Part shown: piece after piece, positions 638-57,440 of the stretch
How positions within the stretch are numbered: the first letter of the stretch is position 1
Layout of the letters: the number at the start of each line of letters is the position of its first letter
Assembly: GCA_031213475.1 (NCBI GenBank)
Contig: JARUPZ010000017.1
Location: 9,561,587-9,625,586 of the forward strand
DNA from: Nereocystis luetkeana
Lineage: Eukaryota > Sar > Phaeophyceae > Laminariales > Laminariaceae
Length of the DNA stretch: 64,000 nt
Direction: 5' to 3'
The notes under the pieces: model-generated
The model's database searches: none
What the model saw: the letters and a program-made list of their open reading frames with translations, nothing else
What the model was told of the DNA's origin: nothing
Made by a program: the position numbers and the translations under genes

Positions 638-989
638 CGACAGACCCTTATCTTGATTCACTTGGACAAAGTGAGAAATTCAGTACAACGACAGGTCGCT
701 CTGTGGTCACAAACTGCGAGACAGCAGAGGAAATAATACATCGAAAAAATATACCAGGTACCAGGTACCAGGTATGGATTAGACATCGTAACGCAAAAAT
801 CATGCCAGCATCGTAAAACCAAATTAAGACGCAAAAAAAGACATAATGACAACATAATAGATACGAACGAAAAATGTACCGTATTGGGCACCACAGAAAG
901 TAGGTACAGGTATCATACAACGCACACGAACACGAGCAAGCGCAAACCAGACAAATTGCAGAAGGGAAAGAGGAAGACACTTTTTCTTT
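638..989. other. No gene recognised; triple CCAGG micro-insertion
   Basis: No element or convincing coding exon is seen. At about 756-777 three overlapping TACCAGGTA units sit in tandem, which looks like repeated micro-insertion into the same TA site. Confidence 0.4.
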
Positions 990-1205
990 GTTTTTTGCTC
1001 ATCCCATTTATTATCTTCGCACATCTTCTTCTCTCTCTCCTTCCAACTCGTAACTCAGATCCGGGGTCACCTAGCAGGCTCTTCTACCCCCTTCCCGCTA
1101 CGGTACGTGCCTTCATTTTTATCGCGAGAAGATTTCAGCCTTTTCTCCCCTCGTCGACTCGCATCGAATTGTGCCTACCCACGCTGCAAGCCGCTCTCAA
1201 CCTGT
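990..1205 (-). mobile_element. SINE-1 copy, head truncated
   Basis: SINE-1 body in minus orientation: poly-T (the poly-A tail), CATCCCATTTATTATCTTCG, the GGATCTGAGTTACGAGTTGG block in reverse, and the CGAGTCGACGAGG block. Similarity stops at CGCTCTCAACC, so the tRNA-related promoter head present in full-length copies (for example 47.7 kb) is missing. Confidence 0.8.
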
Positions 1206-1245
1206 TACTGTTGAAGGTGTGTGCTGAATGTCGGTGGGTGGAAAT

Positions 1246-1357
1246 GCCGGTTTGACCGGTTTTTAGAACTATAGCCCCATTTTGGGGATAAACCGATCAC
1301 AAAATATACCTGGTAAGTAGTTTGTCCCCCAACCGGGACTGCACTCCTAGTCCTTCG
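1246..1357. mobile_element. MITE-B, degenerate, with an internal TACCTGGTA
   Basis: Both arms of the MITE-B hairpin are recognisable (TTTAGAACTATAG... and ...CCGGGACTGCACTCCTAG). The loop of other copies reads ATTATAAGTAGTTTG. Here the TA is replaced by TACCTGGTA (about 1308-1316), so this copy is a filled micro-insertion site inside a MITE. Confidence 0.6.
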
Positions 1358-1779
1358 TAACACAATACCACACACGTAGAGATGGCGGTATGGTACGGGT
1401 CGTGCTTGGAGGCAGCAGACAATTTGATGGTTCAAGTCGTGGTTGGTTTGGGTCGATCGGTGTCGAAGCAGCAGTTAGTTGAGGTTGGACGGAGCAGAGA
1501 GCAAAGCCGCGGAGAAAAAGAAGGTGAATCCTGAATCCACGATAGATACGGCGGGCTCCCAATCCATCGCCCATGAGCTACATAGGTCCGCTCGTCACTG
1601 AAAACCTACTCTGGTAGGACTACGCGTGAGTTAATCTTCATAGTAAAGATAATTTCTACACAACAGCATCCTAATGTAGTTGTATACCTGGTACGCTATA
1701 CTTGGAGAGATGACCAACAAAACAAAAAAGGGTACCAGATGCATATTAGTATCGACATACTACAGCAGCCATAGCCCAC
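1358..1779. other. No gene or element recognised
   Basis: Low similarity to anything else in the window. A TACCTGGTA motif occurs at about 1685. No convincing coding or RNA signal. Confidence 0.3.
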
Positions 1780-1935
1780 TTTGTGTGTTCCTCACATAAA
1801 ACCGCTCTTTTTACCAGTCGATATCCAGCACATATCCAGCGCAGTGCCGTTCTGATTCCTCAATCCTAGAGAGAAACAAGCCCTTGTTACATTGACATTA
1901 TTCAGTATGCAGAGTAGGCAGGGCAATGCCATACC
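1780..1935 (-). mobile_element. LINE-A 3' fragment, diverged
   Basis: Minus-orientation copy beginning with the reverse of the AC tail (GTGTGTTCCTCACAT), followed by the CGTTC/CCAGTCGATATCCAGC block and CCTCAATCCTAGAGAG. The CTAG micro-insertion site is empty here. Confidence 0.6.
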
Positions 1936-1945
1936 AAGTATGTAG

Positions 1946-2054
1946 TATTGCGGGGAACTTTAGTTAATAGGGCCTGCGGTACACACAAAAACCTCTATAT
2001 TATCATTTTTTTCCAAACAACATTTGGTCCTACATACTATGGTCCCCCGAAATA
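1946..2054. mobile_element. MITE-A copy, diverged
   Basis: Ends TATTGCGGGGAAC and GGTCCCCCGAAATA match the MITE-A inverted repeats (TTACGGGGGACC, flanked by TA). The centre has AAAAACCTCTATATTA and AACATTTGGTCCT, as in the other copies. Too short to encode anything; a non-autonomous DNA transposon. Confidence 0.75.
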
Positions 2055-2139
2055 GGCGGTTGTTGTATTTTCTGTTCTCACATCAACTCTCGAAGCAAGG
2101 AGTCCGTGGTCACACAAAGGTGCTGCAGCCCGAAGACCC

Positions 2140-2880: not shown

Positions 2881-2894
2881 GCGTGAAGGCCTTT

Positions 2895-3499: not shown

Positions 3500-3768
3500 A
3501 TACCAGGTACTGGGTACGACAGGCACTACATACACATTCTTTAAAAGAGAGATAACAAAAGAAACACACACAATAAGAACAACAAAAACAGATAAACAGA
3601 GGAACACTGCTGTCCACTCTGCGTTTTACTGCATAAAACATTGACCTGTGGTTTCTGTGGCGTACTTTTGACAGGAGCTTGCATCTCTCCACAATGTGTC
3701 CACGGTTGAAAGGTCGGCACAAACACTGGTTGTGCTGGATGTCGACGGTTACAAAGACAAGAGCACAC
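3500..3768. mobile_element. Inverted LINE-A pair
   Basis: Positions 3500-3590 are a minus-orientation fragment (GTACGACAGGCACTACATAC, then an A-rich stretch). Positions 3640-3768 are a plus-orientation 3' end finishing at AAGAGCACACACATA. A TACCAGGTA lies at about 3504, where other copies read GTATCCAGTA. Confidence 0.6.
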
Positions 3769-5489: not shown

Positions 5490-5658
5490 AATATCTGCTG
5501 TGCTTACTGCATACCTGGTACGTACCAACGTAGTTAGTATCTCTGTGGCGTAGTTTTGTCTCCACAAAACCGGGGTCTCTCTAGGATTGAAGAATCGGCA
5601 CGAACACCGGTTGTGCTGGATGTCGACGGGTAGAAAGAACGGTTTAATGTGAAGAACG
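5490..5658 (+). mobile_element. LINE-A 3' fragment with filled TA site
   Basis: Starts near the CTGTGCTTACTGCA block and ends AAGAACGCACAC. Where other copies read GCATACGTGGCAACG or GCGTACGTGAC, this one has GCATACCTGGTACGTACC, a TA-CCTGG-TA insertion. The CTAG site is empty. Confidence 0.75.
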
Positions 5659-6844: not shown

Positions 6845-7425
6845 ACTCTCGGCGTTGTTTATTCTCCCCCCTTGCCGTCGAGTGGTAAACTTCCGTGACA
6901 CTGCGCACGAAACCAAGAAAAAAAAATCCACCCCGGGTGAGAAAATCAGCCAGGCAACTCGTCGGAGGGGGTTCGTTGTTCTACAGGAGTAGTATGCGAC
7001 AGCAGTCCATAGTATCCTACTGTAGTTCGGCTAAGGCTCCAGGAAGATAGTGACGTCGACGCTGAGCATACCTGGTAGTCTGTAGGATCTAGAGTACGAG
7101 ATAGTGTTCTTCGCTGAGCACAAATGCTTGGCTGTACGTTCCAAAATTTGCTACGAGCCTCAGCCTGAAATTCGTAACTCCCAAAATATCAACACACGTC
7201 GCGTACTCTTACATCCATATTATCTTGTCACGCGTGTTACACTGTATTGTGAACTCTTTTCCTTCCTGGAAGCTGCGCCCGGGTTGATTCTCGCCGGGTG
7301 CATCTCGGTATAAGCCCGATTTGTTTTCTCAGAGATGGACGAGAAAAAAAAGAGAAAACGGAGCCACACTCGCCACCATGTCGGCATTGACTACTGTGTA
7401 GCGCGGTGTCATGAAATTAGGTCAG
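6845..7425. other. No gene or element recognised
   Basis: Unique-looking DNA. One TACCTGGTA at about 7069. No supported coding exon. Confidence 0.3.
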
Positions 7426-7872: not shown

Positions 7873-8010
7873 CTTTAACATCGGTACGAGTTACTGGAAA
7901 ATACAAAGGGTGACAAATACCTACCAGGTATATAAAACACGAGAGAAAGAAAAAACAGAGTACAGGAACCGCAGTATTTTATTAATAGTGCTGCCCTGGT
8001 ACAAGCAGTA

Positions 8011-8107: not shown

Positions 8108-8254
8108 GTAATACCTGGTAGTGATCACTCCAGAATGTGTGTGTTTTGCACATCGTGCCCTATGTTGATGTGCGACAGCCAACAAAATCGGCGTTATGAT
8201 ATAGCGGCAACCAGCGTTACTGACTCAGCAAACTGCCACGCTGGTGAATCTGAT

Positions 8255-10715: not shown

Positions 10716-11714
10716 CGTGATTCTTGTGAACAGAAAATATCCAAACGCACGTAAAAACAGCAAAAAAGCATACCTGGTATCATAATGCACTTTGTACATT
10801 ATTACCTGGTATGACGGCGAAGGCGCGTCGCTGTGTGACTCGATTCTGAGGGACGACCATTAATAATATTGAAATCGAAACACTATTGATATTATAATGG
10901 AGAGAAAAGAAGGGCGGAGAAAAAAAAAGAGATGCAAAAACGAAGGGGAAAACAAAAAGGGTGCAACACAGTAGCAGCGACGCATATCTTTTCAGCTAAA
11001 AACCACAGAGCAATCAAAGCAGGAACGAACCCAGTCATTCAATGTTGTTGTCGAGGGTTGGCGAGCGCGAGCCGAGACAACCTTGCGCACCACCACCACC
11101 AACCAGCAACCTACAGAGAGCGGTATGACGGAACGTCCATGCCAGCCCAGACATTTTCAAGACAAATTAAACTAACTGACTACTCTGTCGTTGTTCGTGC
11201 GGCTTACCCTGAGCCAAGGGCGGCTTGGCGACCAGGCAGGTGCGTGCCCTTCTTTTTTTTTAAGCAGCGTTGAATGGTGTGTCTTCTGTTACAATTAATA
11301 CCAGTTATACCCGTGGTGCCTGGCTTTACCAAGATACCACGTACCAGGTATGTGTTACCAGGTATATAACAGAGTAGTGTCGTGTATTTTTTTATTTTTT
11401 TCAAGCACCGTGCATCGAAAGGTATTATACCTGACACTACAAGCAGTATACCAGTATAATCAAGACTATCAACAAGCAAGATACGATGAATCGAATACTG
11501 CAATATAAATAAACGTAACGTTTCGTCTTTTCAACCAACAGGGCTGTCCGCGGCACATCTATGGGAAGATATTACCATCTTACGTAACTACCTAGAACTT
11601 TTAGTTTAATTCTCTCTGTCGCTCTCCCTCCTATATTTTTCATTGTTATTTTATGGTCTTCTCCCTCTCTGTCGTCCATGTGTACACGGACACCAGCAGC
11701 ACTCGTGGGTGTGG
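10716..11714. other. No gene recognised
   Basis: Contains several TACCAGGTA/TACCTGGTA motifs (about 10774, 10802, 11338, 11355) but no alignable element and no supported exon. Confidence 0.3.
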
Positions 11715-12256: not shown

Positions 12257-12750
12257 CTCGTGCACTGATTTTGCTGTTGTGTAGACTCAGGCCCCTGCTT
12301 CTATCCTTAGCATGGGTGATACGATCCTATTGCTGTCATGTCGACACTTACCAGGTATAGTATGCCCGTCGGCCGTTGGGTGGACGCGGCATCAGGCATG
12401 AACATCACTGCTTACCCGCACTCCAACCTCAGCTAGCTGTTTGTGTTGGTCACATATAACACATGAAGGACTCTCGCTACAGTACAACGCCACCTGCCGA
12501 CATTCAGCAGACACAGCAGTGTCCGTGCCGACTCTTGCTCGTACAGAGATACCACCAGCCGGTCGAAAACTATTTCCAGGTACGAGTACGTAGTTCGAAC
12601 ATGTATCTGTCGTAATATACTTGTTATGTTTAACTACTACCGATATACCGGTATATATACGAGATGGAGAAACCGTGTAGCATGCCCACAACGACAAACG
12701 TACCGGGTACGACAAGCAGGTCACGTCCATACCAGTAGTAGACACACTGT
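12257..12750. other. No gene or element recognised
   Basis: TACCAGGTA at about 12350 and short LINE-A-like words (GTGTCCGTGCCGACTCTTG at about 12518) without a continuous alignment. Confidence 0.3.
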
Positions 12751-12943: not shown

Positions 12944-14090
12944 AGTTTCTGAAATAGAAAACAACACGTTGTATCAAGAAAAGAGCGAGATATAAAACAA
13001 ACAAAAAACTCTCCCTAGCGTATCCCCACTATGTCTCGTTTTCCTTCTGAGCTCACCGAGTGGAAGAGCTGCGGCTGCTCATCGTGGATCGTTGACGGCT
13101 CGAAAACAAGCACTGCTGTACTACGTACCGGCTGTATTGCTGTGCTGCTCGCTTGGAAGTGCGCAGGGGGGGGCGGGGGGGGGGTATGGTCGATGTCAGA
13201 TTGAAAAAACAAAAAGCGGCGGGATTTCTATCGAAACGCTAATTTTGGGCCAGCTGGCACGCGTTCATGTTCGCCTGATACAGACGTATGTTACACGCAT
13301 CAGATTCCTTCTGATCCCTTTTCTCATGTTTTCTAGTGCACGCATACCTGGTACATGGTATTTGTTTGCTGTTAGAGTTGTATGAAATAAAGCTATAAAT
13401 AGTAAGACGTTGATGTAGAACAACGGCAGATACTGCTACTCAGAAAAATATCATGACGGCATAAGTATGTACACAAATTGACAACTTCGACGCGGGCAGC
13501 TTGCAATCTTGACGCAATATCAATCGTGGTTACATAGGTTGAAATTGTTATGAGCAACGGAGAACCGAGAATGTCAGACTGGGTCTAGTCGCGATTGTAG
13601 AGTGTAGATTCGAGGCTAAAGAGCGTGGTTGGTGGTGTTCTGTATTTGATTGTTTACTCCAACGAAAAAAAAGGCAGCTGCTACTGATGCTGCAGTCCGT
13701 ACTATTTCACGATAATACCGATCATTATACCATTAGACCCTTAGACATTAGACTACATATATGTATAGCCTACGTACGTACCAGGTGAATATATATTCTG
13801 CGCCACTTTTTTTTCAGTCACCCATCAGTTCTACTTTCCAGCTCATCTCGTAACATACTACAGTGTGGGCCCACCAACAAGAAACGCCTGACCTGGGCAA
13901 GCCTGAGATTCTTACTGGGGCGCCATCTTCAAACAACCTTGAGCATAGGCTAATATATAGGATTTAGTGTAGAGTCCACAACTGAGCCGTTTTTCTTAAC
14001 CCAATTTTCTTAGCGTTCTCCAGAGAGTGAGCCTTTTGTTCTTATTAGACTCTTTCTAAATCGTGGACCTACCAGGTACTATGCTACTAA
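12944..14090. other. No gene or element recognised
   Basis: A poly-G patch at about 13166-13185 and footprint motifs at about 13346, 13780 and 14070. No supported exon. Confidence 0.3.
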
Positions 14091-14445: not shown

Positions 14446-14504
14446 TCGCTCGTTTTTTTGCTTTGTTTTTTCCATCCCGTACCTGGTATATGGTAGCTTT
14501 TATT

Positions 14505-14760: not shown

Positions 14761-14889
14761 GACGCTTACCTGGTATAATACTGATCTAACAGTTGTGAGG
14801 ATGAACCACTAATATACTGATGTAGATAGACCCTTGTTGTACCGTAAATCGCAATATAGGAGGTCCAAAATAAGAAGTTGTGTATGTAT

Positions 14890-15005: not shown

Positions 15006-15975
15006 CGGCAAGAGAAAATAAAAGTACGAAGTTGTGTATTAGACGAACGTGCTCACGTCGAAATAGGGCAAAGAATGCGTCAGCTGTGATACTTCATACT
15101 GGTGTATACACAGCTTTGCAGCAGAGATGCGCGATGTCCATACGGCTGTACGCCCGCCGCGCGTAATCTAAACTCTATATAATAAAGTAAGTGAAGCAGA
15201 GTTTACGTTGATACGAGACCTAGCCACAACAACAGCAGTGCGCGGCAGCAGCTAATAATCTTTATTTAGCCAACGGCTCGCGGTTTATTGTGATGCCAAC
15301 GTTAAGCATAGGTCGTTTCTGATAAGGTATCCCGTCTCCCCTGTTGCGGCATTATGATTTGTAGCAAGCGTCCCCTCATCGTACCCGGCAGGCGTTATTG
15401 CCTGCCTTTCTGATGAATGCCTAAAAGGCTAGTATATACCTGGTAGGATTTAGAGTAGCGTTTCCCGCTGAGCACAAACGCTTCCAGTAGCTGCATATTC
15501 TTAAATAAAGACAAAAACACCTCGAAATTCTTGGCTGCCAAATTATTTTACACCTACATGTCGCATAATTTAATTCCACAAGGCCGTGTTATGCCCCTCC
15601 CAACGAGAAACCGAGTGGCGTTTTGCACCGCAATTCATACCACGGACCGTAAAGGGGGTATGTATCGATCTACTTCTTCCACCTGGGATGCGCGCTAGGT
15701 GTACGACATTCGCTTGCGCTTGCAAAATTCCGTCGACGTTGTAAAAAGCATTGCCTTTCGCGAAATTTGCAAGTGGCCCATCCTGGTGGGAAATGCCTGC
15801 GCATAAAATAGAAACTTCGAGAGAAGGGATGATAGCGATCACCCCCCCACACCTTTCGACAGTGTGTCGCCTTTCCAGAGTTTTTTGGCGGGTGTTGAAT
15901 CAACGACGCTTGCACATTGGCTAGTTGAAGGCGAACTGCCGAGGTTCACCTTTTCATTTTGCCGTAACGCGCGTC
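15006..15975. other. No gene or element recognised
   Basis: Unique-looking. A minus-strand frame at 15570-15915 has no recognisable domain. One TACCTGGTA at about 15437. Confidence 0.3.
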
Positions 15976-16087: not shown

Positions 16088-17870
16088 ATATCTAAATAGG
16101 TATATAGGTAAATACGTTTGAGTGGTGGGCGTGGTGGTGTCTGCAATCACTTAGAGTTAGTGTACATTGCCTTTCTGTTGGAGTTTCGTAGTGCAGTCTA
16201 CAATATCAATAATCGATGTCGTAAAACAATACCAGGTAGAAGCTGAGGACCTCGCCCTGAAAAAACGGTTTTGGAGGTAAAGCGAACCCGCTTCTCAACA
16301 GACCACCGCATGGGCTACTTGTTTGTAGAGCCTGTCCCAGAGATACTCCTGCTTCGTACGTATAGCGCAAGATGTATTCTAGCCAACACCAAACGAATGG
16401 GGCACGCAAACAACATACCTCGCACGAATATATAAAAAAATTCAGGGCAGTTGCTCAGATGAGCAGCCCTGGCAGCCAGAACATTTTGGGTCGAAAAGTA
16501 CCCCCCCCCCCCCCCAACCCTGACTGCACTGACAACAATCACAGGCTCCGCTCACTATAAGGAGAGGCGATACGTCCACCAGAAATGCAACTCGGACGAG
16601 GTGGCGAGGTGCAAATACGTCGGCTGACCCCTGCTGTCTAGGTTTGGCCCGTCGAGGCCTCATAATGCTTGATGCACCACATACAGTCAGTAGGTCTAAT
16701 ATGAGGAATTATTTAGACGGCTGTCCGTCAAGCGGCAGGAAAAAAATCGTAAAATACGATACACCGGGTACACTTCTTGCGAGGTGGAGTGGGCGGGTTC
16801 GTCGCAAAGTGGCGAAACAACCACGGTCGAACCTACTACTCGTCGAGCCGGAAGCACAAACGACTGCAATACCTACGTACCTGGTATCATGTAATTGTTA
16901 CATACCAGGTACAAAGGGTAGCTCACGCCATTAATAGGAACTCGTCCTTGTTCGTACCGTGCAACACGCAAGATAACACACGGGTGATAAAATATAGCAC
17001 ACACCCTCGGGACGAAGCTCGGAGCTGATTTTCTCGGCAGCGGGGAGAGTGTGGACACCGAGCGACACGCGTCAACGAGATATTTCAAAGCCACCATGTT
17101 CGTCTTGCATGTGCCAAGCCCCCCCCATGTATTGGAGAAAACGAGAAAATGGCTCCGATCGGCTCCGAACTTCGTGCCAGGGAGTGCGATAACTTGCGCG
17201 AAATAATACGGTATGTGCAACTGTCATCAACTATTATTGCCGTCTGTGTGCGGTGGTGGTGGAAGGCCTGAGACGAAAATACCGGTAGCTTGGTTGGGCG
17301 GCGCGGGCCTCCGGTTTATTCCAGCTCAAGGCGCATTGAACCGGCAACTCACATATTCGCTTCGCTCGTAGATGAGAAACAGCAGGTACGTACGAATAGC
17401 AGACAAATAACTAAAGAAGGCAGCGGCAGCAGAGTAAAATATAAAATAAGCCCGATCGGTAGACCGCGGTCCTCGAATTCTGGGCGTCGAACACAGCGGT
17501 GGCAGGCCTAAAGTACGTGACACGGACTCGAACACGTAGTGGATGATAATGATGTTTTCGAAGAGCTATAAAGTAGTGGCATACCGGCATATACCAAAGC
17601 CACACCGGCATACACATCATGGGGCATATTAAGGTAAGATGTATCACATCATCACCACAAAATAATATTGGGGAGGGGGAAAATAAAATAAACATGGACG
17701 GGGCCTAGCGAATGAAGGAGGGCCTTGCAAATCGCTCCCTGCAGGTCGTTAGTCTGATCGGTCGAGCCTGCACTGTCGGGCCCCGGCCCCGGTTTTTAGG
17801 GAGAACGCGACCGAAACAAGTTGCGGAGCCGCGCGACCACGCGTGCCGACCTCGGGCTACCCAAATGGTT
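16088..17870. other. No gene recognised; poly-C tract
   Basis: A run of about 16 C at 16501. TACCTGGTA/TACCAGGTA at about 16229, 16876 and 16903. A CTAATTATT-rich patch occurs but no alignable repeat and no supported exon. Confidence 0.3.
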
Positions 17871-17947: not shown

Positions 17948-18300
17948 ACCGCTGAGTTCGCACAGGCCGGGGTGCGATCGTTTTTCAGCGCTCGTTTTCC
18001 CGACAACGGTGATAAAGCGATAATGTCGAGCATTTGTACCTGGTGAAGGCTCTCAACCAGATACCACGTGTTTTCCTGAGCACACTTTTTGCTCTGTATT
18101 AGCAACCTCGACAAAGCTAAAAAGAGCGCTAAAAAGTCGATCGTTTATGCCTGGTATGTTTTCGGAAGGTTCTCAACCAGATACCAGGTATTTCCTCAAA
18201 ACACCCATTGCTCGGTATTGGATAACTTTAACCTCGTTTCCTGTCCTGGAAAACTCTAGCTCTGAAAAACGATGGCACCCCTGCGCGAATCCAACGCTCT
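17948..18300. mobile_element. MITE-D copy
   Basis: Left end GGGGTGCGATCGTTTTTCAG and right end CTGAAAAACGATGGCACCCC are inverted repeats, followed by the outer CGCGAATCC side. The interior holds two similar segments with CTCTCAACCAGATACCA, each next to a CCTGGT/CCAGGT motif. Confidence 0.65.
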
Positions 18301-19405: not shown

Positions 19406-19567
19406 TTTCATAAAAACGCTCGCGCGTGCGTTCCTAAAAACGTACCAGGTACCAGGTATCTCCTTGGTTCAACAGGTACTGAAACGAAGCGGGTAGGCCA
19501 GCGTACGGTCGTATAGGGTACCGACGCCCCAAAGATCCCGCGGTTTAGAGGGGGGGAGAGTGTCGTA

Positions 19568-19660: not shown

Positions 19661-19863
19661 TCCAGATCCTTTGAAAGCCACTATTAATATTTCGTTTTCG
19701 TCTCCCCCAATTCGGAAAAATAAATCATTCAAGTTTTTTTCTATATACCGCCCCCACTACAACAATCCACCTACCCATCCATGTTTGCTTGCAAAACTTG
19801 CCGGAAATTCATCCCGCGTGTTATAGTACCAGGTACAGCAGTACAGGACACCTACAGTATTAA

Positions 19864-20214: not shown

Positions 20215-20335
20215 GTTTTCTGTAGGGAATGTAGACTAAAAATGTTACCTGGCACCGGTACCTGGTACGTAACAAGCGCCGAACTTAAGGTTAATAAACT
20301 CGATTTCCACCACTTTTTCCCTCACTAAACCTGAT
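20215..20335. repeat. Direct repeat unit 1, with double CCTGG insertion
   Basis: GGAATGTAGACTAAAAATG..., GAACTTAAGG and AATAAACTCGATTTCCACC recur at 20.56 kb. Between ATGTTA and CGTAACAA this unit carries an extra 20 bp containing two CCTGG cores (TACCTGG, CACCGG, TACCTGGTA). Confidence 0.6.
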
Positions 20336-20559
20336 GTATCTCTCCTTGCGAGTGAGTCAGGAGCCCCGATGAGACTCTGAGCATCGAAGTTTTACCTCCG
20401 ACTTTTCGGTAGTATTGATCGGATTGCACTCATCGTTCCTTCCTGGGTGTTTTCTAAGGGAGTGAGTTTTGCAGGGCCTTGAACATGAGATAATCCCCTT
20501 TTTGTTCCTCTTTTTCAGGGGATGAAGGCGAGGATCGTCCTGCCGTCGATGCCATCGTA

Positions 20560-20640
20560 CGGAATGTAGACTACAAATGTTACGTAACAAACGCTACTCG
20601 AATTTAAGGTTTATAAACTCGATTTCCACCACGTTGCCTG
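20560..20640. repeat. Direct repeat unit 2, empty site
   Basis: GGAATGTAGACTACAAATG, TTACGTAACAAACGC and TATAAACTCGATTTCCACC. Reads straight through the TA that is expanded in unit 1. Confidence 0.6.
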
Positions 20641-22400
20641 TCTTTTTTTGTTTTTTTCGGCATTTTGATAAATTTCCGAGTCCGATCAGATCTACAGGAA
20701 AATGCAATTTAATTCACTGCAGAATATCGATATTTTAAAATGAGCTCCATTCGAGTATAAAACTAGTAGAACAGCTGTACGTTGGAACCAAATTAATATG
20801 GGATTTCCACACACGTAATGAGTTTTTTTCTGTCAGGGAGGGTACGGGACGAATGTCTAGACGTATGGATTTGCCTTGACAGACAGACAGCTTGACACTG
20901 ACATGTCTCCTGACATCTTTGCCGAATTCCGTAGTGTCTGGCAAACCTCAGCTTGTCTTTCTTGTTACTCGTTTTCATGTGAGGTGTCCTTGACTGCTGT
21001 CGTCCTGGTGCCTGGTATTACTATTAATACATACCAGGTATAGCAGTACTCTTGACCTCTGGGAAACGCCCCGACTTTCATATGGCGAACAGGATAAGAT
21101 TACGGGCAGTATGTTATCAGGCAGGGCGTCGGGGTTTGCGTGGCAGGAAAGACAGAACGTGTAATTTAGACCAGTTGCCAATTGGATGGAATCACTGTCC
21201 TTTTCTATGCACACCTCTTCCACGAGACTTGAGTCGCTCCTGCTGTCGCTGCTGTGGTTGTTGTTGCTGCTGCTGCCGCTGCCACACTCATTCAGAAGTA
21301 GCGATACTCGTAGCCTCTTGATTCAGCCTTCTTTGTTTGCCTCACAAGCACCACGTACCAGCACACCAGAACATGGTAGACACCAACCAGTGCACGTACG
21401 TACACAGCCGGGCCTCTCACCGCTATCGTGCTCATGTTTCCGGCCTGTGTGCTCATCCACGATGGGTGCCACGGTTGTGTTTCGGGCGCAGCCCGGCGCC
21501 TGACTTCTTGTTGTCCTCGAGTGACCAGACATGTTCGCGGGGGCAGCGGATTTCGGGTATGCTGACTCCTGATCAAGCTGGCTGCTGCAGCTGCAGGTGG
21601 TCCCCTGGTGGCCGCTATTGGTATGTAAACCTCCATAAATAACATCTCTATCCTGTGTACGGAAATATAAGGACCATTTTATCACAAATATGAAATAAAA
21701 AATACCTTACATTTATATCAAGAGTTTCAGTAGATGACAGTCCTGTGTCCCATCCCATTGCTACATCGTATGATTGCTGCGGTTATATGACGATAATATA
21801 AGAACCGTTTACTGCTTCATATGAAACCAACAAGGTCCTTATTACACTACTACCGGTTATTCATGGTATCTCCTCTCCCCAATAGGACCACAGCGGAAAG
21901 CAACAATAATCAATCGGCGTACAACCAAATCACACTGCTGTTGTTGCGTACTGCTGTGTGACTACTACCAGGTATTATGTAGCTCCTAGCTGCTGCAGCG
22001 TGGTGTCATTTTAGACCCTCGTCGACCCTCCACACTGCACACACACAGCGCGATCGGGCCCATTTTATACGGAACATATCCGGCATCTGGTTTTCTGGTC
22101 TGGTATATGGTACGGTACTGAAAACTAAAATCGAAATTCTACGGGACGGGACGGTCAATAGGCGATTCACGAGTCTTCTCGTTCACGGGGCGGGACTGTC
22201 ATTCATTTAGATTATGGAAACTGGCCGGTATTCCTTGTTGCTCAAGGCTCCATCAAGAGTAACCAACAATATGCGAGGTGCGAGGCGCTCGGCTGCACCC
22301 GGAGTATAACCGGGGCTTCCATGAAATGGGGGCAAAAGCCGCAAACATGGGCACCAAAGCGGCAGGTGGACGCGCGCGTGATTTGCAGCTTGCATTTAGC
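20641..22400. other. No gene recognised; weak inverted similarity inside
   Basis: The stretch 21.43-21.53 kb (GCTCATGTTTCCGGCC, CGGGCGCAGCCCGGCGCC) resembles the reverse of 22.26-22.36 kb, with perhaps 30 percent mismatch by eye. A CTG/TGC-rich patch lies at about 21240-21290. Neither stretch contains a domain that can be named. Confidence 0.3.
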
Positions 22401-23084: not shown

Positions 23085-23740
23085 CACCCCGGACAGCTCA
23101 TGAGTAGCTCATGGGCTAGCTTATCTATCGTGAATAGCTCGAGCTTCGAAAACATGCGCAGATGAGCTACCGCCAATAGCTCAGGCCGGGAGAAACATGT
23201 GAAGCTCCTGTACCTCCTGTACCTCATATCGGGAACAGATGAGCTACTGCTGTAGCTTATGTAGCTCCTACAGCTCAGCCTGGCAAATATGTGTAGATGA
23301 TCTATCCTCTTTAGCTCAAGCTTTGAAAAAATGTGCAGATGAGCTACCGCCTGTAGATCAAGCCAGGGGAAACATGTGTAGCTAATATAATGTAGCTCCT
23401 ATAGCTCAGCCTGGAAACAAATATATATAGATGAGCTATCCTCTACTCAAGCCTTCAAAACATGTGCAGATGTGCTACCGCCTGTAGCTCATGCCTTCAA
23501 ATGTGCAGATGAGCTATTAATACCACCTACTACCTGGTATAGCTCAAGCCGGAAAAAACATGTGCACATGAGCCATCGCCTATAGCTCGAGCCGGGGGGA
23601 ACATGTACCTGGTACAGATGAGCTACCGCCTATCGCTCAAGCAGGGATAACGTGTGCAGATGAGCTATCGCCTGCCTGGTTTAGCTCACTCCCGGACGAC
23701 GTAATCACAGCTCATGTACCCAGCTCATTGTAGCTCTTTC
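23085..23740. repeat. AGCTC-rich satellite, locus 1
   Basis: Degenerate tandem array, period about 60-70 bp. Each unit contains GCAGATGAGCTACCGCC, TATAGCTCAAGCCGGG and AACATGTG. Some units are interrupted by TATTAATA (about 23513) and TACCTGGTA (about 23530 and 23605) relative to their neighbours. A second locus lies at 30.3 kb. Confidence 0.8.
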
Positions 23741-25138: not shown

Positions 25139-25615
25139 ACATATCGATGGCGTTGTTGGTGGGGTCCACATCCATCGATGGATCCGGGGGTTGCTGCCCG
25201 CCGCCAGCCTGGTCTACGGACGAAGTGCCACTGGGGCTGCTACCTCGGGTCGAGGGCATGCTAGGGGTGTTGCTGGGTGGTGTCGGTGTTGTGTTTGGTG
25301 CGAGCGCCTCTTGTGGTGTGTGTGGTGGTAGCTGACAGCTGTTGTAGCTGTTGTTGTCAAAAAACGATTTTTTCAAAATCTGCCGGGTGTCGACCTATCG
25401 TCAGGTGTATTCAGAACAGAAGCAGATCCGATCTCATGCAATATACTCCTCCTCCACTTCGGCCTGCCCCGTCCTTGGAGGGGGCCGAGGAAGTCCGCCA
25501 GGACCTGCAGCGGTCTAGCGACAGTCACACGAACATCGAGCTTCGGACTAGGTAGGTAGGGAGGGAACCTTGCGCGGTCCGACTGGTGGCCTGCTCGCTT
25601 TAAGGACCGCATGGG

Positions 25616-31039: not shown

Positions 31040-31520
31040 TGTCGAACATGCTTCGGGGGGCAAAACTACTTTCCCCTGAAGGGTAGTAAACTCTTGGGCC
31101 AAAGAAGGCAAAACAGGGTTACCCTGGTATAGCTCAGGATACGTGTGCATTTTGTATTTGCATCAACTATCTACGTTCTTCTCCCAGTGCCTATGAACCA
31201 GTTGTAGAGGGCACAAAATGATGAAAGATCTGTAGGTGGTGCGGACCTCTGGGCCTTTCCATCCTGATCCCGGCCGCACCCTGATCCCACCTGGATATGA
31301 TTCCTTTGGGTACACCCTGCTCCCATCCATAAGGTGCAGAAACGAAGTCGATCCTCCACAGGGGCCGCCGGAGGCCCACCAGCTACCCTGATCCCATCCA
31401 TAGGCACGCCGCCGGGCTACCTTGACCCGATGGAGGCAGCAGCGGTCGTCCAGAGCCTCCAAAATTGAATACAATAAAAAAAAATAACGAAGTCGCATCC
31501 ATGATCACTTTTACTCTCCA
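31040..31520. other. No gene recognised
   Basis: GC-rich stretch 31.2-31.45 kb open in minus frames but without a recognisable domain; similar in style to 41.0-41.3 kb. Confidence 0.3.
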
Positions 31521-32220: not shown

Positions 32221-32915
32221 GAAACCGTCGTATATCGACGATATCCAACACTACTACTGGTATATACTATAGTATGTGCCCGTTACCAAACATGACAGGG
32301 TTACATACTAAAGCAGCACCAGCATGCTACACGTGCGACGTCCGCTCTGTTGGAGACGAATAGCAAGAAATACCGCACCTGGCATTTACTTGTGAACTGC
32401 AGTATCTTACGGGCTGGATCCGCAATCGACTAGAACCTGGCGCACTGCTGTCCTAGGTCGCCGTCTTATCGAATAACACGTACCTGGTAAGATAAAACGC
32501 CCCCTCCAGGGAAGTTTTCCGACCCGATCCTATCTAAACCACCGCAGGAAGGGCGGTGGGCACATCTAAAATTGTGGATTGTGTACAGATTTCGACGGGA
32601 TATCCTCATAGCCGCATACACAAGCTCGGCGCTAGCATCCCCCCTATTGCCGAGAAAACCAGCCTGGGGCTTCGTCCAAGTGTGTGCAGTTGTCTTGCGT
32701 GTTTTACGGTGTGCCTGGGTCGACATTCAACCTGACACTCCATGTGCTCGAAGCTCGGCTCCTGAGACCAGTCAGTGATGTTGTTGTTGATCTCATAATA
32801 GCTCATTGCCGTTACACCCCCTCCCGCGGTGCACACGATCGAAGTATGCATCGCGCCAACCTTGCAGAGATGAGGTTTAAGGAGACCTTCGATCTCTCAT
32901 CACAGCTGAGCTTGT
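32221..32915. other. No gene or element recognised
   Basis: No supported exon; one TACCTGGTA at about 32480. Confidence 0.3.
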
Positions 32916-33907: not shown

Positions 33908-35070
33908 AATTAAAAAAAATGAACATTCCATCCATAAGTGCGACATAGAAGTGATGCACCTGGTGGTACAGAGCAGTTCTCCTGCTGGGCATGACACGTG
34001 TAGTGCCAGGTGGTGCTGTGTTTTATTTTTTACAGAGAGAGGAGTTATCCCTGTACCACGTTCTATTCGTATACAAAATGGCGATGAGTTAATAAATGTG
34101 AGAACAAGTATTAATACTATTAATAACAGCGACGATGTCGTGCTGTGCTACTCCTTGCAATTACAACGAATGCTCGATGTTTATGTATATACTCGTACAC
34201 ATACACAGATGCAGCCGTAAACAACCCCGACGTCTGCACTGCTGCTACTGCTGTATGCTACCAGCTGGGTCAGCCACGGCACTCCAACAGTAGTGCGGTG
34301 GGTCGGCTATGCACCGCTCAGTATTGTTTCACGTATTTGGACAAAATTGGATCATGCACCATCCAGGAAATGGGAAAGGCCTTTTTCTTCTTCTTTTCGT
34401 AACAGAGATACCAGGTATATATGACCGATACAACGATCCGAAAAACATTCAAAAGCGACCATCCCTTCTCCGAGTACGGAACAAAAAACAATAGAAACAG
34501 GCTTTCCATCGGCGTGGATATACATGCATGCTGTACAAACACGAGGTTGAGGACAAATCAGATCGAAAGTCGCGAAATTGAGCGGGCCATGGCAGGGAGG
34601 ACAATTGTCCTCGCCACTACTTGTTTATTGTATACGAACGTTTTTTTAATGTCTCTTGAAGGAGCGACGAATTGGGCATCGCAACCGTCATATACTTGTG
34701 TCTTCAGGACTACATATACTACTACTGCTTCTGTAGTGTACCCCAAAATCCACTTTGGTCGGAAACAACGATTTTTTCAGCTGTTATTCTGACTTTTTTT
34801 TTTGTCTAATTGTCGGTAAAAGCTGGAATGATAGTTTCGAGGTTTCTTGGTTATCTCGGCAAGATCGAGCCGGATTCTCGCAGCATTTGGGCTTGCATGC
34901 ATACTGTTGCATGCTATTGGGCCAGGGTCAGTGCTTCCAAGTTCGAGTCCTGACTTGTTCAGTTGTTTGACGGGATGCGACCTTCGGATCCCTCATCAGT
35001 TTTTTGGCTGGCCCAGCTCGAACTGGCTACAGCAGTACCTGGTAGTACGTATTAAATAGTAGTGTTGGTG
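33908..35070. other. No gene recognised
   Basis: GAGTTAATAAATGTGAGAAC near 34.09 kb is a partial copy of the (AAC)n-tailed repeat, with TATTAATA motifs at about 34108 and 34117. TACCAGGTA at about 34408 and TACCTGGTA at about 35034. Confidence 0.35.
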
Positions 35071-35072
35071 TC

Positions 35073-35181
35073 TATTACGGGGGACCCTAGTTAACAGGAC
35101 CTATGGTGAACATAAAAACCTATATGTTTAACCATTTTTACTAACAATATTTGGTCCTGTTAACTATGGCCCACCGTAATA
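35073..35181. mobile_element. MITE-A copy
   Basis: TATTACGGGGGACCCTAG to TATGGCCCACCGTAATA. Confidence 0.88.
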
Positions 35182-35271
35182 GAGTGCTTTCTGTATCCAC
35201 CACCAACCTTCTTCACTGCCTGACACTATAGGGCTATACACGGCCACGCTCAATCTAAAATGCGCCCCCAG

Positions 35272-35470
35272 CCCTTTTAGTACGGCACTATTACGGGGGG
35301 CCATAGTTAACAGGACCAAATATTGTTAGTAAAAATGGTTAAGCATATAGGTTTTTATGTATACCATAGGTCCTGTTAACTATGGTCCCCCGTAATAACA
35401 CGTACGTCAATTTAACTCTAATTCCAAGTGTTTTTGTCCCCACAATGGTACATGCGGTCCTAAAGGCCCT
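35272..35470. mobile_element. MITE-B split by a MITE-A
   Basis: Left remnant CCCTTTTAGTACGGCA. After the MITE-A come CTCTAATTCCAAGTG, TTTTTGTCCCCACAATGG and GCGGTCCTAAAGG. Parts of the left arm are missing. Confidence 0.55.
35289..35397. mobile_element. MITE-A copy, inverted relative to its neighbour, nested in MITE-B
   Basis: TATTACGGGGGGCCATAG to GTCCCCCGTAATA. The interior is reversed compared with the copy 108 bp upstream. The left flank CCCTTTTAGTACGGCAC and the right flank (35.40-35.47 kb) are two parts of a MITE-B, so this element inserted into a MITE-B. Confidence 0.85.
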
Positions 35471-44580: not shown

Positions 44581-44700
44581 TATTACGGGAAACCTATACC
44601 TGGTAGTAAATAGGACCTATTATTGTCAGTACGAATACATAACTGTTTAGTTTTTTTTTGTGTGTAACGTAGGTCCTATTTAGTATGGCCCCCCGTAATA
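44581..44700. mobile_element. MITE-A copy with TACCTGGTA inside
   Basis: TATTACGGGAAACCTATA to GGCCCCCCGTAATA. At about 44597-44605 TACCTGGTA replaces the TA of CCATAGTAAATAGG, the same TA that is TACCGTA in the 39.2-kb copy. Confidence 0.85.
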
Positions 44701-45329: not shown

Positions 45330-45634
45330 AGTTTTGTCTTCTTTGTTTTTGCTTTTTTTGTTTGTTTGTTTCCTTTCGTTTCTCTAAGTCATAGAATGTG
45401 TATGTCGTGCCTGTCGTATCCAGTATGATGACATGGCATTGCATTGCCCCCTACTATTGTGCTTACGTGTTTACTGCATACCAGGTACGTGGCAACGTAT
45501 TCATATTATCTCTGTGGCGTAGCTTTGTGTCCACATAACTTGTATCTCTTCTAGGATTGAAGAATCGGCACGGACACTGTGGTTGTGCTGGATGTCGACG
45601 GGTAGAAAGACGGTTTAATGTGAAGAACACACAC
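45330..45634 (+). mobile_element. LINE-A 3' fragment with filled TA site
   Basis: T-rich stretch, TAGAATGTGTATGTCG, CATTGCATTGCCCCC, then GCATACCAGGTACGTGGC (TA-CCAGG-TA at the site that is TA in the 6.7-kb copy), an empty CTAG site, and the tail GTGAAGAACACACACACC. Confidence 0.8.
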
Positions 45635-45988
45635 ACCAGATCAGAAGATGCAGATGAGTTGCAAGAGAGAAAAGAGAAGGAAACAGAAAAAGTCCTGCCG
45701 GAAGCGTAACGAACCCATGGGGGAAAAGTCGTAGGTCACTTCGTATCTGCACAAAAATGGAGCGGAAGAAAGAGTACCAGGTATTTAATGCCATGGTAGT
45801 CTGATGGGTGTCTGTATTGTAATAAGCCCCAGCAGCACCAACTCATTGAATAAATACAAAGTGCTTGATTAATTAATCAACAATCGTCGGCCAAACGAAG
45901 GGACCGAGCGAGCAATGCCCCGAAGCCGCAACACTCAAAAGCTCACACAATCGCTTCGAACGATAAATGTCTTCATACGCGAATCAAC
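45635..45988. other. No gene or element recognised
   Basis: TACCAGGTA at about 45776; no supported exon. Confidence 0.3.
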
Positions 45989-48078: not shown

Positions 48079-48850
48079 TATTACACTACCACTATTATTA
48101 TTTCGCTTGCCATCCGACAATGTGCAGCATGATCTTCAACATGGATCACTCATAACTTTCCCGAAAGAAGAAAACCTCGGAAACAAAAGGAAACCCATGC
48201 ACCAACTATTGATGTGATAGGATGCAAACGGTTTTGAGGTTTTATCAAGTTCCATCATATATATGTAAATTCGACGGAGATAGAGTACTTGCAAATATGA
48301 CGGAGTATTCCAGCTTTCCGATGGTGCTGCTTGTGAGCGAAAGCGCGGGTTTGCAGAGGAGGCAGAGGTGATCGAGGGGGATTGAGGTTTCCTTCTTGGA
48401 ACGGTTATAGCTCATGAACGACCGCGGTTCTTGCAAAACTAGTCAGAGCGTTGCACGGCCCAAATCGTGAACTTTCCTGTGATGCCAAATACCATGGTAC
48501 GTATCTTTTCTAGCACAAGGTGGGTCGGGGGCTCCTCCCCCGTTGAAAAATAGTACCAGGTATGTTTTTGTTTACTCCTTTTTACCCATCTCTTCCTCAC
48601 CTAAAACCGTGTAATTTCGGCTACACGTAGGATCGTTGGGAAGCTGATGTCTTCAGCTTTCCATCGAACCTACCCACTACCCACATGGTTTAGATGTCCC
48701 TCTGTGTGTCCGTGTGGTCGAAAGCTACAGTTAGGTGAGGTGCAAATACGTTTCGTCATAGAAAGAGGGAATGCTTTGGGCCCAAAACAATAATTCCGAG
48801 ATGAGCAGAATGCTGTTTTGAGGGGTTGTTTATTCTGGGCCACCGTATGC
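48079..48850. other. No gene or element recognised
   Basis: TACCAGGTA at about 48555; no supported exon. Confidence 0.3.
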
Positions 48851-53887: not shown

Positions 53888-54224
53888 TTGTTTTTTTCCA
53901 TCCCATTCATTATCTTCGCACATCTTCTTCTCTCTCTCCTTCCAACTCGTAACTCAGATCCGGGGTCACATAGCAGGCTCTTCTCCCCCCTTCCCGCTAC
54001 GGTACGTGCCTTCATTTTTATCGCGAGAATATTTCAGCATTTTCTTCCCTCGTCGACTCGCATCGAATTGTGCCTACCCACGCTCCAAGGCGCTCTCAAC
54101 AATTGAATCCTTTTTTATTTTTATTTTTGCAAATAAAGTCAAAGTCCGACCCTCCTAGGGCTCGAACCCAGGACTCAAACAAGTAGATTCGAGGTTAACC
54201 ACTTGCACCACCGGGGCGACCGGC
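53888..54224 (-). mobile_element. SINE-1, full length
   Basis: Complete minus-strand copy; the head has small changes (CTAGGGCTCGAACCC, CACTTGCACCACC). Confidence 0.88.
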
Positions 54225-54715
54225 TCCATGGGACTATTCATCGGGATGCAATTTGATTCTTGCTGAAGTCAGTTTTCGGGTGAGGTATGGACCTCCTTAA
54301 GTGAGGAGCCTCAGAAATGGTAGGGTGAACCTAAACTGTCGAAGAACGCCTCTTCTATTCTGGATATTTGATCGATTTTTTTTTTCCCGGTAGCTCAGTT
54401 CCTAGGAGGTAGATCTCTCGCGCTAGAACATCGAGGCTTAAGTTAGGTGCTGGGAAGGCTGACTCCGGTAAGCGTACTGCTGTACCAGATCACGAGCCGG
54501 TACTGGAGCTTAGACAACATCCCCAATCGAACTCTATAACCGAAAGCCGCCATTTTTACGTTTTTTAGATGCCTCCCAAGAAAGGGGGCGCCGGCCTAAG
54601 TGCAGGACGACCCTGGAAAAACGCCTCTGCAGGGCGCTCCCACTGTGCTGGTTCTACGTACAATAACTTCGTTTGCTTTTTGCTTTGTCGCCGTTTGGTT
54701 GAAACCCTCGATCTT
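54225..54715. other. tRNA-like A box; otherwise no gene recognised
   Basis: CCCGGTAGCTCAGTTCCTAG at about 54388 resembles a tRNA 5' part with an A box, but no good B box or closing acceptor stem follows. Confidence 0.3.
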
Positions 54716-54724
54716 GGTGGATCA

Positions 54725-55010
54725 GGCCCGGGTAGGTAGGTGCGTGGGTGGGTAGATAGGTGTGGCCGGGCCGCTGAGAGGGTGAAAGGATGGGTGGGTG
54801 GGTCGGTGGGTAGGTGCGTGGGTCGGTGAGTAGGTGCGTGGGTCGGTGGGTAGGTCGGTGGGTGGGCCGGTGGGAGGGTGGGTCGGTGAGTAGGTGGGTG
54901 GGTAGGTCGGGGGGTAGGTGGGCGGGTCGGCGAGTAGGTGGGGGGGTGCCTGGGTAGATGGGTGCGTGGATAGGTGGGCTGTTTGCAGGGTGGGTGGGGG
55001 ACCCGTTGGG
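54725..55010 (+). repeat. GGTGGGTCGGTGAGTA-type minisatellite
   Basis: Tandem variants of GTAGGTGGGTGGGTCGGTG with a roughly 12-20 bp hierarchy. Minus-strand translation gives Thr/His/Pro repeats; this is a property of the minisatellite. Confidence 0.85.
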
Positions 55011-57440
55011 TGGGTGAAAGGGTGCCTGCCGGGTGCTCGTTGGATTTCTGCAGGGACGTGCGGCGCAGCGAGCGTGTGGTTGTGTGGGCGAAAAGGCTGC
55101 GGCATCTGCAGGGTGTTGCCCCCGCTCTGCCGTCACTGTAGGTCAGCCACTGCTTCCTTTACTGCTCTTACTTCCGGCTTCTCTGCGTTTTGGCAAGGCG
55201 CAAAAAACGAGTTTAACGAGGCAGATTGAATCAGGAACAACAGCAGCAGTACAGCGGAAAAGTACCATATCCCTACTATTAGTAGGTGTCACCCTAAGAT
55301 CTCTGAAACTTGAAACATGTTCTTGTCCCGTCTCAAGCCCCCAATTCAGACGCTCAGGACCTACCTGGTACGCATTATCACTGTTTTCAGGGTTCTTTAC
55401 GGTTCGGCATCGTCACTGGTAATAATGCGCAAACTCCCTTGCAATTGACGTCAATACAGCAATTGAAGTGACAATAACATTATTAGTAGTAACAGCGGCA
55501 GCGGGAGGCGGCATTCTTAGCTCTTGATCGAGCCTCGCAGGTGTGCGCAACGGCCAGCTATCATACCTTTCATCAATGTCGCACACAAAATTCATAATCG
55601 TCATTATCAGTCAATTAATCAGTACACAAACTCAAGAAGAAACCGTGCAAAAAAAACGACACCCATATCATACCAACTCTCCCCCCCATAATAAAAAGTC
55701 ACACATTGTACAATTTCACGTCGATATCTGCATCCAACCGAATAGCAAAACACGCACGCAAGAGGCTGCTAGCTTCGACAAAAAACAAACACGTACCAGG
55801 TACTGTATACTATGCAGTATCGCCGTCCCGTCCCCGCTATACCGCATCATATATTTCAAGAGCGTAGACCAACCGAACAGTCCGACAAATGACGAAGAGT
55901 GCATCAGATATCGATTATTACCTCGGTCGGTGCTTGATCTAACAAGTCGGCTCTTCTTAAAAAAACAAAACATGCGCCCCATCACAAGCCGTTACAGCTT
56001 CACGAACGCGCTGCAGGCTAACGCTCAGTAAAACCGCTGCCGCATTTAGGAGTCCCAATTTTTTCCAAATGGTTGCGGAAACGGCGAGAGCTTGAAACGT
56101 CGACACTTGGCTGGACCATCTTAGACAAAGCAAGTATTACAAACATACCAGGTAGGTGTAGCAAGTAGCAAATGACAGGCTCACGGTTCTACATAACCCT
56201 ATATTGAACGTATCTGAGTACCCAAAATATCATTACCCTGGCAGGGAGAACCATGGTATTGCTTGCGCCGTCCATCGCGTCATCACCTCCACTGATCGAG
56301 GGGGGGGGGGGGAGGTCACATTCCCCCCCCCGCCAAAACATCCCGCACCGGTCAACCAAAATAGCCTGACACGTCCCATTCAAAAGGCACTTACTTGACA
56401 GCTGGGGGAAACGAAACTACTGCAGTTACACTATAATAGCCCGCCTCCCGCGACAAAATGCCGAGATTCTCATCACCGACTCGGCACAACTATAAACGCC
56501 GCCCCATCACTGACCACCGACTCGGAATGGATGAAAAGAACCGAACACAGCCCCCTCACAATCATTGGATATATTCGAAACGGCACAAGTTAGACCGCTG
56601 CATCATTACCGACTCGATATATATATAGGCAAAACGGCACAAACGCACAAATCAAGTCGCCGACCAACTACCGAAGTCGATATAGCCCAGATGACACAAA
56701 ATCAGACCGCCTCTCCCTCATTAGCCCGGCGCGGAGGGATACGACCCCCGTTCCCCCCTCCGGCTCGCCTTTTTAATTCGGACGCCAAATTACCGACGGA
56801 AAACACCCACGCAATCCCGCCGCACTTCCTTGTGTACTGCAGTAGTTAGCGCACACCAACTGTCCGGTCAGGCGAAACAAAATCAACAAAAGAAAAGGAA
56901 ACGAAAGCAACCCCGCGTCCGGCGCGCGCGAGGTTTTTACCCACCGTTACCCACCGGACCTTTACTAACCTACCCAACCGAGCCCTCTCCCTCTCCCGAC
57001 CGCACACCCCACTGCCCCTCCCTCACTAGCAAACACGGCAGAAAGATATTTCGTGGGGGAGTTAAGACCTCTTTAACCTTATCATACTGTTTTTAGTATG
57101 GGGGTCAGTCAAGGAAGGGGTGAAAACGGGATCATCCTCAACAGTTGTTCACAACCAAACCTCCTGTACGAATCGACTATTTTTCTGCAGCAGAAAACAA
57201 ACAAAAAAAAAGTCGGAATCAGAGTCCGACACTTTTTTGCTAGAATCACATTGAGGGAAGGGGAGCGAAGAGAAAAGCGAGGCCAGGCGGGGAGGGGCAA
57301 ATAAAGCAACGTAAGAAAGCGAGCGAGCAAAAAAAGCGGAACCCAAAAACGAAATAAAGGGCTGCCCGATAAGAGCGCAAGAGAAGTAAAACAGTGGCGG
57401 ACGCGAAAAAAACAAACACTAGAAAAATCTCCGTAAAACT
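55011..57440. other. No gene recognised
   Basis: Footprint motifs at about 55364, 55797 and 56149; poly-G and poly-C runs at about 56300-56331. Frames are Lys- or Pro-rich and unsupported. Confidence 0.3.

Follow-up and report, generated by a model that had tools for sequence, protein, structure and literature searches.

Introduction

The excision of cut-and-paste DNA transposons leaves short footprints which, according to the excerpts of the published reports on which we draw throughout, have for the most part been characterized with plasmid assays, at individual sites or in sets of a few hundred alignments (PMC9976928, PMC7827188, PMC1925063, PMC7913693, PMC5023962, PMC8151067, PMC2874221). 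The footprints of Tc1/mariner elements are 2-4 bp long (PMC7913693), that of Sleeping Beauty was given as TAG(T/A)CTA (PMC2874221) and as CAG (PMC8151067), and the target of ZB is an AT repeat, ATATATAT, said to be similar to that of Sleeping Beauty (PMC7913693). In rice, 27,641 transposons were annotated and 206 excision alignments were obtained (PMC5023962). Here, we describe a 9-mer, TACCWGGTA (where W is A or T), that is dispersed through a 64,000-nt stretch of contig JARUPZ010000017.1 of the kelp Nereocystis luetkeana (this whole stretch is referred to below as the window) and through the 465,085,209-base assembly of 1987 contigs to which it belongs. We interpret TACCWGGTA as the mark left by the excision of a cut-and-paste DNA transposon that was specific for TA and worked like Tc1/mariner, and put the probability of this interpretation at about 0.86.

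Abundance of the 9-mer

The window contains 42 exact words (TACCAGGTA or TACCTGGTA), 32 of which begin within the first 24 kb; 100 dinucleotide shuffles gave a mean of 0.43 and a maximum of 2. When tandem copies are merged, 39 sites are left; the central base is A in 20 of them and T in 19. The original prediction, made from the letters of the window, was that the word occurs at least 35 times, mostly in the first 24 kb, with a chance expectation below one; the lack of a genome-wide excess was named as grounds for refuting it. These counts agree with it and the scale is far above it: the word is present at 182,395 places in the assembly, compared to 1,744 for the reversed-pattern control (when the central base is C or G, there are 10,882 places, control 1,899). 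Sampling at round coordinates on 18 contigs gave 20 stretches of 10 kb, of which 19 contain the word and one (L023) has none. The feature is thus real; its kind is known, but its scale is unusual.

Empty and filled TA sites

The window was aligned to itself and then to the 20 sampled stretches and to loci from two genome searches. In the self-alignment, repeat copies differ by precisely 7 bp, e.g., at 3501 versus 45425. A homologous copy spanning the site was available for 24 of the 129 sites of the window and the fetched stretches, and at 14 of these 24, with the alignments judged by reading, the copy has an intact TA. Five of them are in the window (1307, 5512, 23531, 44597 and 45479) and the others in fetched loci (L002:1501, L003:1501, L009:9130, L010:5266, L014:3808, L017:9581, L028:7056, L030:2269 and L041:2465, the last being 95.5% identical to window positions 28041-28152). 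The remaining 10 cases are unclear, AT-rich or have no TA in the copy. At several of the 14 sites (e.g., L003:1501, L009:9130 and L028:7056) a single filled copy stands against several empty ones, and therefore TA is ancestral and TACCWGGTA derived; this polarity is read directly from the copies, and the opposite one, in which TA would be a deletion, is not borne out. Judged from these alignments, CCWGG is a true insertion at TA with duplication of the TA, as had been proposed from the window, and the empty and filled pairs (TA to TACCWGGTA) display the insertion at TA with duplication by which IS630-Tc1-mariner elements are recognized.

Some of the pairs originally put forward need qualification. 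In LINE-A, a family of long interspersed nuclear elements (LINEs), the copy near 6693 is empty, but its TA site is mutated (GCGTACGTG); the copy at 36 (GCATGCGTG) is likewise empty yet mutated, and the clean empty form, GCATACGTG, is found in L007 and L009. The satellite unit at 23531 has a TA counterpart, but the counterparts of that at 23606 have TG. The direct repeat of 20236 and 20580 does lack the insert in one copy (20557-20635), but what is absent there is an entire array and not a single CCWGG unit. Positions given in the original prediction were correct within a few bases, except that the array placed at 20236 starts at 20246.

The LINE-A hotspot

A single TA of LINE-A, in the context CTTACTGCA-TA-CGTGGCAACGT, carries the T form at 5512 and the A form at 45479. 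A genome search with both flanks, in which the gap between them could be 0 to 30, gave 463 and 467 places, and its reversed control none. Among the 100 places listed, all on the first three contigs, the site is filled in 59 and empty in 41. The units seen there are CCAGG (29), CCTGG (22), CCAG (6) and CTGG (2), with the rarer CCAGGG (5), CCCTGG (1), CCATGG (1) and CCACCTGG (1), and 11 further strings are mostly mutated forms. Doubles and triples include A/T mixtures and mixed unit lengths. This set of units is not explained by point mutation or by one inherited insertion, although some forms may be shared by descent among LINE copies. A tree of 27 scored copies, built on about 200 bases or fewer per copy and hence weak, requires 5 switches between A and T to place the 6 T forms found in 15 rows, and 4 switches between the empty and the filled state to place the 4 rows that are empty. 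Twenty separately fetched copies are all filled, a sample biased to filled sites because the search query carried the footprint. Another copy of the hotspot, at window position 30083, reads TACATA, which is possibly another type of footprint or a decayed one.

Footprint variants and the overhang model

The products found between TA duplications were counted directly in 341 kb of fetched sequence, with expectations from a trinucleotide model. CCWGG was observed 139 times versus 3.2 expected. The 4-bp classes are CCAG/CTGG (32 versus 10.8), CCGG (17 versus 5.35) and CTAG (13 versus 2.6), and the 6-bp classes are CCAGGG/CCCTGG (10 versus 0.93) and CCATGG (3 versus 0.33).

For the insertion chemistry and the overhangs of the source element we infer the following scheme. 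The element would insert at a TA, preferably within WAnnnYR-TA-YRnnnTW (Y, pyrimidine; R, purine), and duplicate it, as the outcome shows. Upon exit, a staggered cut would leave on each flank the TA and a 3' overhang, 5'-CCAG-3', derived from the inverted ends of the element and probably 4 nt long, with a 5-nt CCAGG as the alternative. The two identical overhangs would then anneal, mostly by three bases, so that two G-C pairs flank an A.A mismatch, and gap filling and mismatch repair would yield CCAGG or CCTGG. Annealing by four bases would give CCAG, CTGG or CCGG, and annealing by two CCAGGG, CCCTGG or CCATGG.

The product spectrum is the evidence for this last step. When the products of two CCAG overhangs are enumerated for overlaps of four bases down to two or less, an overlap of four gives CCAG, CTGG, CCGG and CTAG, an overlap of three CCAGG and CCTGG, and an overlap of two CCAGGG, CCCTGG, CCATGG and CCCGGG; CCCGGG was not observed in the 341 kb (0 versus 0.45 expected). 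An overhang of 5 nt, CCAGG, explains the main and the 6-bp products equally well and CCACCTGG better, but it needs trimming to account for the 4-bp class, and we consider 4 nt more likely. It had been suggested that the alternation of A and T at the centre resembles the repair of a mismatched overhang, and the 4-bp and 6-bp variants found at one TA match this model. A new kind of end processing, also suggested at the time, is not needed: CCAG ends overlapping by three yield the 5-bp scar, and because a 4-nt overhang falls within the 2-4 bp of Tc1/mariner footprints, no new chemistry has to be invoked.

Target preference and re-use of sites

Once the insert is removed, filled TAs display a symmetric preference for WAnnnYR-TA-YRnnnTW, with concordant left and right sides. 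The profile of 121 sites, duplicate loci excluded, was compared to 14,108 TA positions, a background without TA followed by CC. A is present at -6 in 0.52 of the sites versus 0.25 of the background (p = 6.6e-11), T or A is preferred at -7 (p = 5.9e-7), R at -1 (p = 7.5e-6) and, more weakly, Y at -2, all mirrored on the right. A profile trained on half of the sites separated the held-out half from the background with an area under the curve of 0.80 (p = 3e-16).

The core classes were compared by their flank score at a cut of 6 or more, scored against all TA, of which 0.106 reach it. CCWGG does so in 0.58 of cases (n = 139) and CCAG in 0.50 (16/32), so the target preference of CCWGG is clearly found in the 4-bp CCAG class as well; the small samples of CCGG, CCAGGG and CCATGG, with 0.35 (6/17), 0.30 (3/10) and 0.67 (2/3), lean in this direction too. 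The preference is weak for CTAG (3/13), the excess of which could partly be of microsatellite origin, and is lacking for the cores CCCGG (0.13, 2/15), CGAG (0.14, n = 43) and CAG (0.07, n = 130). The words TACGAGTA, TACAGTA and TACCCGGTA are likewise in excess and, because they lack the target preference, we do not count them as the same scar. We also observed that TACGAGTA/TACTCGTA (43 versus 11 expected in the 341 kb) occurs in tandem as TACGAGTACTCGTA in L072, e.g., at its start; it might be the scar of another element.

TA is present at -7/-6 in 0.26 of the sites versus 0.08 of the background and, since the TAs of a scar are 7 bp apart, a scar remakes part of a good target; sites would thus be re-used and tandem units would arise. 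Of the units that adjoin an exact footprint (n = 258), 16 are exact (6.2%), 11 have one mismatch (4.3%) and 19 have two (7.4%), whereas units next to any TA give 0.84%, 0.58% and 2.0%. The commonest spacings between neighbours, overlapping loci included, are 7 bp (10 pairs) and 14 bp (5 pairs).

Age of the scars

In 279 kb, 129 exact words are accompanied by 121 one-mismatch words versus 59 expected; spread over nine positions, this excess of about 62 would correspond to a mean divergence of some 5% per site. For the window by itself, under a dinucleotide model, 17 one-mismatch words versus 11 expected beside 42 exact ones give about 1.6%. The genome-wide excess of about 9,000 words that have a central C or G, beside 182,395, sets only an upper bound on divergence because those sites are mostly without the target preference (2/15) and may be something else. 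The decayed forms suggest that the scars were probably produced over a certain length of time and not in a single, very recent burst.

Search for the source element

Although footprints occur about once per 2.5 kb, no complete element with CCWGG or CCAG ends next to TA came up in the window and the fetched stretches. Inverted repeats with such ends were searched over spans of up to 9.5 kb, with one end mismatch allowed in some searches, and the pairs found were judged to be due to chance or to belong to other repeats. The original prediction had noted that no element with CCAGG or CCTGG ends is visible in the window, and the same holds for the fetched stretches.

Protein profiles were searched as well. 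Transposase_1 gave 0 matches, which is uninformative because no control genome gave a match either. DDE_1 gave 28 matches to pogo-type transposases, none linked to footprints; in L039 and L042 a DDE_1 match lies between pogo-type ends, CAGTACCGGCC, adjoining TA, L045 shares the inner part, and all three have one stop codon or none within the match. Such pogo elements were rejected as the source of the scars, since ends of CAGTACCGGCC would not leave CCWGG and TACAGTA sites are without the target preference. So was piggyBac, with its TTAA target and seamless excision, because T is present at -1 in only 0.07 of the symmetrised sites and a scar remains. The IS630-like profile NF033545 gave 24 matches (best E value 4.2e-7), all below the curated cut-off and none linked to footprints. 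In Pfam, three open reading frames (ORFs) of the window and nine ORFs or exons of fetched loci matched only RVT_1/Exo_endo_phos (the window LINE) and DDE_1 (L033). Scans of viral contigs with the pattern of MITE-A (a miniature inverted-repeat transposable element), the LINE protein and the C-terminal exon of the candidate found no relatives.

One IS630-like group is repeated and has open frames of 437-515 amino acids. Its 3' part is found at 12 places (query included) that are 99-100% identical over 501 bp, with a thirteenth at 83%. The stretch read, C2:6044250-6048030 of assembly G000 (pieces L069-L073), stops short of both element ends; the family reaches rightward to C2:6048030 at 10 places with 100% identity and leftward to C2:6044250 at nine places with 99-100%. 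Near-identical copies lie on C7, C10 (two), C13, C15, C18, C19, C30 and C1354, and two partial copies stand head to head at C2:20045584-20052131. The element is large and recently mobile, its gene is apparently spliced, and its 3' part contains imperfect repeats of about 190 bp.

Footprint sites in the window

The sites are listed in Table 1. Other repeats of the window include MITE-A, about 110 bp long with ends TTACGGGGG adjoining TA (35068-35182, 35288-35397 and about 12 more places, some copies being mutually inverted), the ORF of a non-LTR (long terminal repeat) retrotransposon, which has an endonuclease and a reverse transcriptase domain (25604-28165), and a satellite of 32 bp in about nine copies (62256-62546). 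The LINE and MITE repeats are of a kind that identifies the genome as eukaryotic.

Table 1. TACCWGGTA footprints and candidate variants in the window; none is assigned a strand.
Positions	Feature	Context	Basis
752..774	three tandem footprints, TACCAGG x3 + TA		exact-word match
1307..1315	TACCTGGTA	MITE-B loop; TA in copy 2790-2863	word match, alignment
1685..1693	TACCTGGTA		exact-word match
3501..3509	TACCAGGTA	7 bp missing in copy near 45425 (- strand)	word match, self-alignment
5512..5520	TACCTGGTA	hotspot TA of LINE-A	word match, alignment
7069..7077	TACCTGGTA		exact-word match
7922..7930	TACCAGGTA		exact-word match
8112..8120	TACCTGGTA		exact-word match
10771..10779	TACCTGGTA		exact-word match
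10803..10811	TACCTGGTA		exact-word match
11342..11350	TACCAGGTA	one-mismatch unit TACCACGTA adjoins at 11335	word match
11356..11364	TACCAGGTA	14 bp after 11342 footprint	exact-word match
12349..12357	TACCAGGTA		exact-word match
13345..13353	TACCTGGTA	followed by degenerate unit TACATGGTA	word match
14070..14078	TACCAGGTA		exact-word match
14480..14488	TACCTGGTA		exact-word match
14767..14775	TACCTGGTA		exact-word match
15437..15445	TACCTGGTA		exact-word match
16230..16238	TACCAGGTA		exact-word match
16878..16886	TACCTGGTA		exact-word match
16903..16911	TACCAGGTA		exact-word match
18182..18190	TACCAGGTA		exact-word match
19443..19458	two tandem footprints, TACCAGG x2 + TA		exact-word match
19827..19835	TACCAGGTA		exact-word match
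20259..20267	TACCTGGTA	after degenerate units from 20246; copy 20557-20635 without entire array	word match, alignment
21032..21040	TACCAGGTA		exact-word match
21966..21974	TACCAGGTA		exact-word match
23531..23539	TACCTGGTA	satellite unit; TA in related unit 30349-30448	word match, alignment
23606..23614	TACCTGGTA	satellite unit; TG in related units	word match, alignment
32481..32489	TACCTGGTA		exact-word match
34409..34417	TACCAGGTA		exact-word match
35036..35044	TACCTGGTA		exact-word match
44597..44605	TACCTGGTA	MITE-A copy; TA in other copies	word match, alignment
45479..45487	TACCAGGTA	hotspot TA of LINE-A	word match, alignment
45775..45783	TACCAGGTA		exact-word match
48554..48562	TACCAGGTA		exact-word match
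55362..55370	TACCTGGTA		exact-word match
55794..55802	TACCAGGTA		exact-word match
56146..56154	TACCAGGTA		exact-word match
31120..31129	candidate 6-bp variant TACCCTGGTA		class enriched, single copy unproved
48490..48499	candidate 6-bp variant TACCATGGTA		class enriched, single copy unproved

Alternative explanations

Several observations count against excision footprints of a Tc1/mariner-like transposon. The window and the fetched stretches yielded no complete element whose ends read TA-CCAG or TA-CCWGG, and the DDE_3 profile search gave 0 matches. The length of the overhang is not fixed, with the 4-bp class and CTAG favouring 4 nt and the lone CCACCTGG favouring 5 nt. The flank score is unspecific, since AT-rich cores and GGACC, a word of MITE-A repeats (0.71 at a score of 6 or more, n = 14), score equally high. 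At LINE-A the A forms exceed the T forms (29 versus 22, 6 versus 2 and 5 versus 1), and tandem units are often alike, in 6/7 arrays of the 121-site set and in 5/8 abutting pairs among the 100 genome places listed. Given this surplus of A forms and the likeness of tandem units, some units may have been multiplied by slippage or passed on together with a LINE copy.

A more specific version of the excision footprint interpretation names the IS630-like transposon as the source. This group is the only near-identical dispersed one with open frames that emerged from the DDE_3, Transposase_1, DDE_1 and NF033545 searches, and is the strongest candidate. We nevertheless regard this assignment as rather unlikely, as any TA-CCAG ends would lie beyond the sequence read, the matches to NF033545 are all below the cut-off, and the estimated mean age of the footprints exceeds that of the near-identical copies.

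It would be very improbable that the scars result from programmed excision, with the elements kept in the germline or another stage and only scars seen in the sequenced tissue. The internal eliminated sequences of ciliates do have TA boundaries, and the kelp scars far outnumber the visible elements in the sequence examined. However, the scars are tandem, partly decayed (the 121 one-mismatch words) and absent from many homologous copies, and thus look inherited and accumulated; in addition, contigs are up to 21.9 Mb long, unlike what is expected of a fragmented somatic nucleus.

Still less probable is a 7-bp microsatellite or slippage product arising without any transposon: arrays of two to three units exist and most short arrays are uniform, but 114/121 collapsed sites are single units, their flanks share the symmetric target motif, A/T and 4-, 5- and 6-bp units are mixed inside one array, and the single TA insertions in the empty and filled pairs largely refute it. 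For an assembly or library artefact, of negligible probability, no supporting point was found, and the presence of the word in 19/20 stretches, its decayed forms, the target motif and the polarity in repeat families speak against it.

Implications

It is conceivable, and we offer it tentatively, that the transposon underwent some hundreds of thousands of excisions in one lineage, reached over half of the copies of a preferred TA (an estimate that rests on the 59/100 listed places of the single LINE-A site) and left few copies or none. If true, this would reveal an element or a host system in which loss by excision greatly exceeded survival, and scars that rebuild part of the preferred target and so invite repeat visits. 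With about 180,000 scars, the likely overhang, the annealing choice, the outcome of mismatch repair, the preferred target and the repeated use of sites become readable from sequence. At 7 bp each, the scars have added more than 1 million bases; they would show that small insertions can be spread through a genome by repeated excision and not by insertion alone, and some of the scars may perhaps have altered genes.

Comparison with known systems

What is surprising is the number of scars, and that the sequence examined offers no visible source for them. No description of a TACCWGGTA scar was found among the papers listed in literature searches, at the level of titles and the starts of abstracts, a scope from which most subscription journals and bioRxiv fall out. 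As with Sleeping Beauty and other Tc1/mariner elements, the kelp scar has the TA duplication and a central A/T ambiguity, and its other bases would come from overhangs of the element ends. Unlike that of Sleeping Beauty, its main core is 5 bp and not 3, the end would be CCAG, and there are about 180,000 scars per genome; unlike the ATATATAT target of ZB, to which that of Sleeping Beauty is said to be similar, the preferred target is WAnnnYR-TA-YRnnnTW (PMC7913693).

Other comparisons are possible within what the excerpts of the respective reports state. Passer, of the pogo superfamily, is likewise a cut-and-paste element and leaves short variable footprints of 0 to 4 bp (PMC9976928), whereas the main kelp scar is 5 bp, dominates the spectrum and comes with no element in hand. 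The Stowaway MITEs of Triticeae resemble the kelp case in that a site can carry several different footprints, that short remnants of inverted-repeat ends (inferred ones in the kelp) lie within the TA duplication, and that a site once used can receive a new insertion (PMC1925063); they were described at one intron site, whereas in the kelp it is one TA in hundreds of repeat copies and the whole genome, with the element out of sight. Like the rice study, which read excision scars via genome comparison (PMC5023962), ours relies on homologous copies, but the kelp scars far outnumber the visible elements in the sequence examined. Finally, the internal eliminated sequences of Paramecium are also elements in tens of thousands that are removed (PMC3464196, PMC8354472); in the kelp, unlike in Paramecium, the scar remains, appears to be inherited, and decays.

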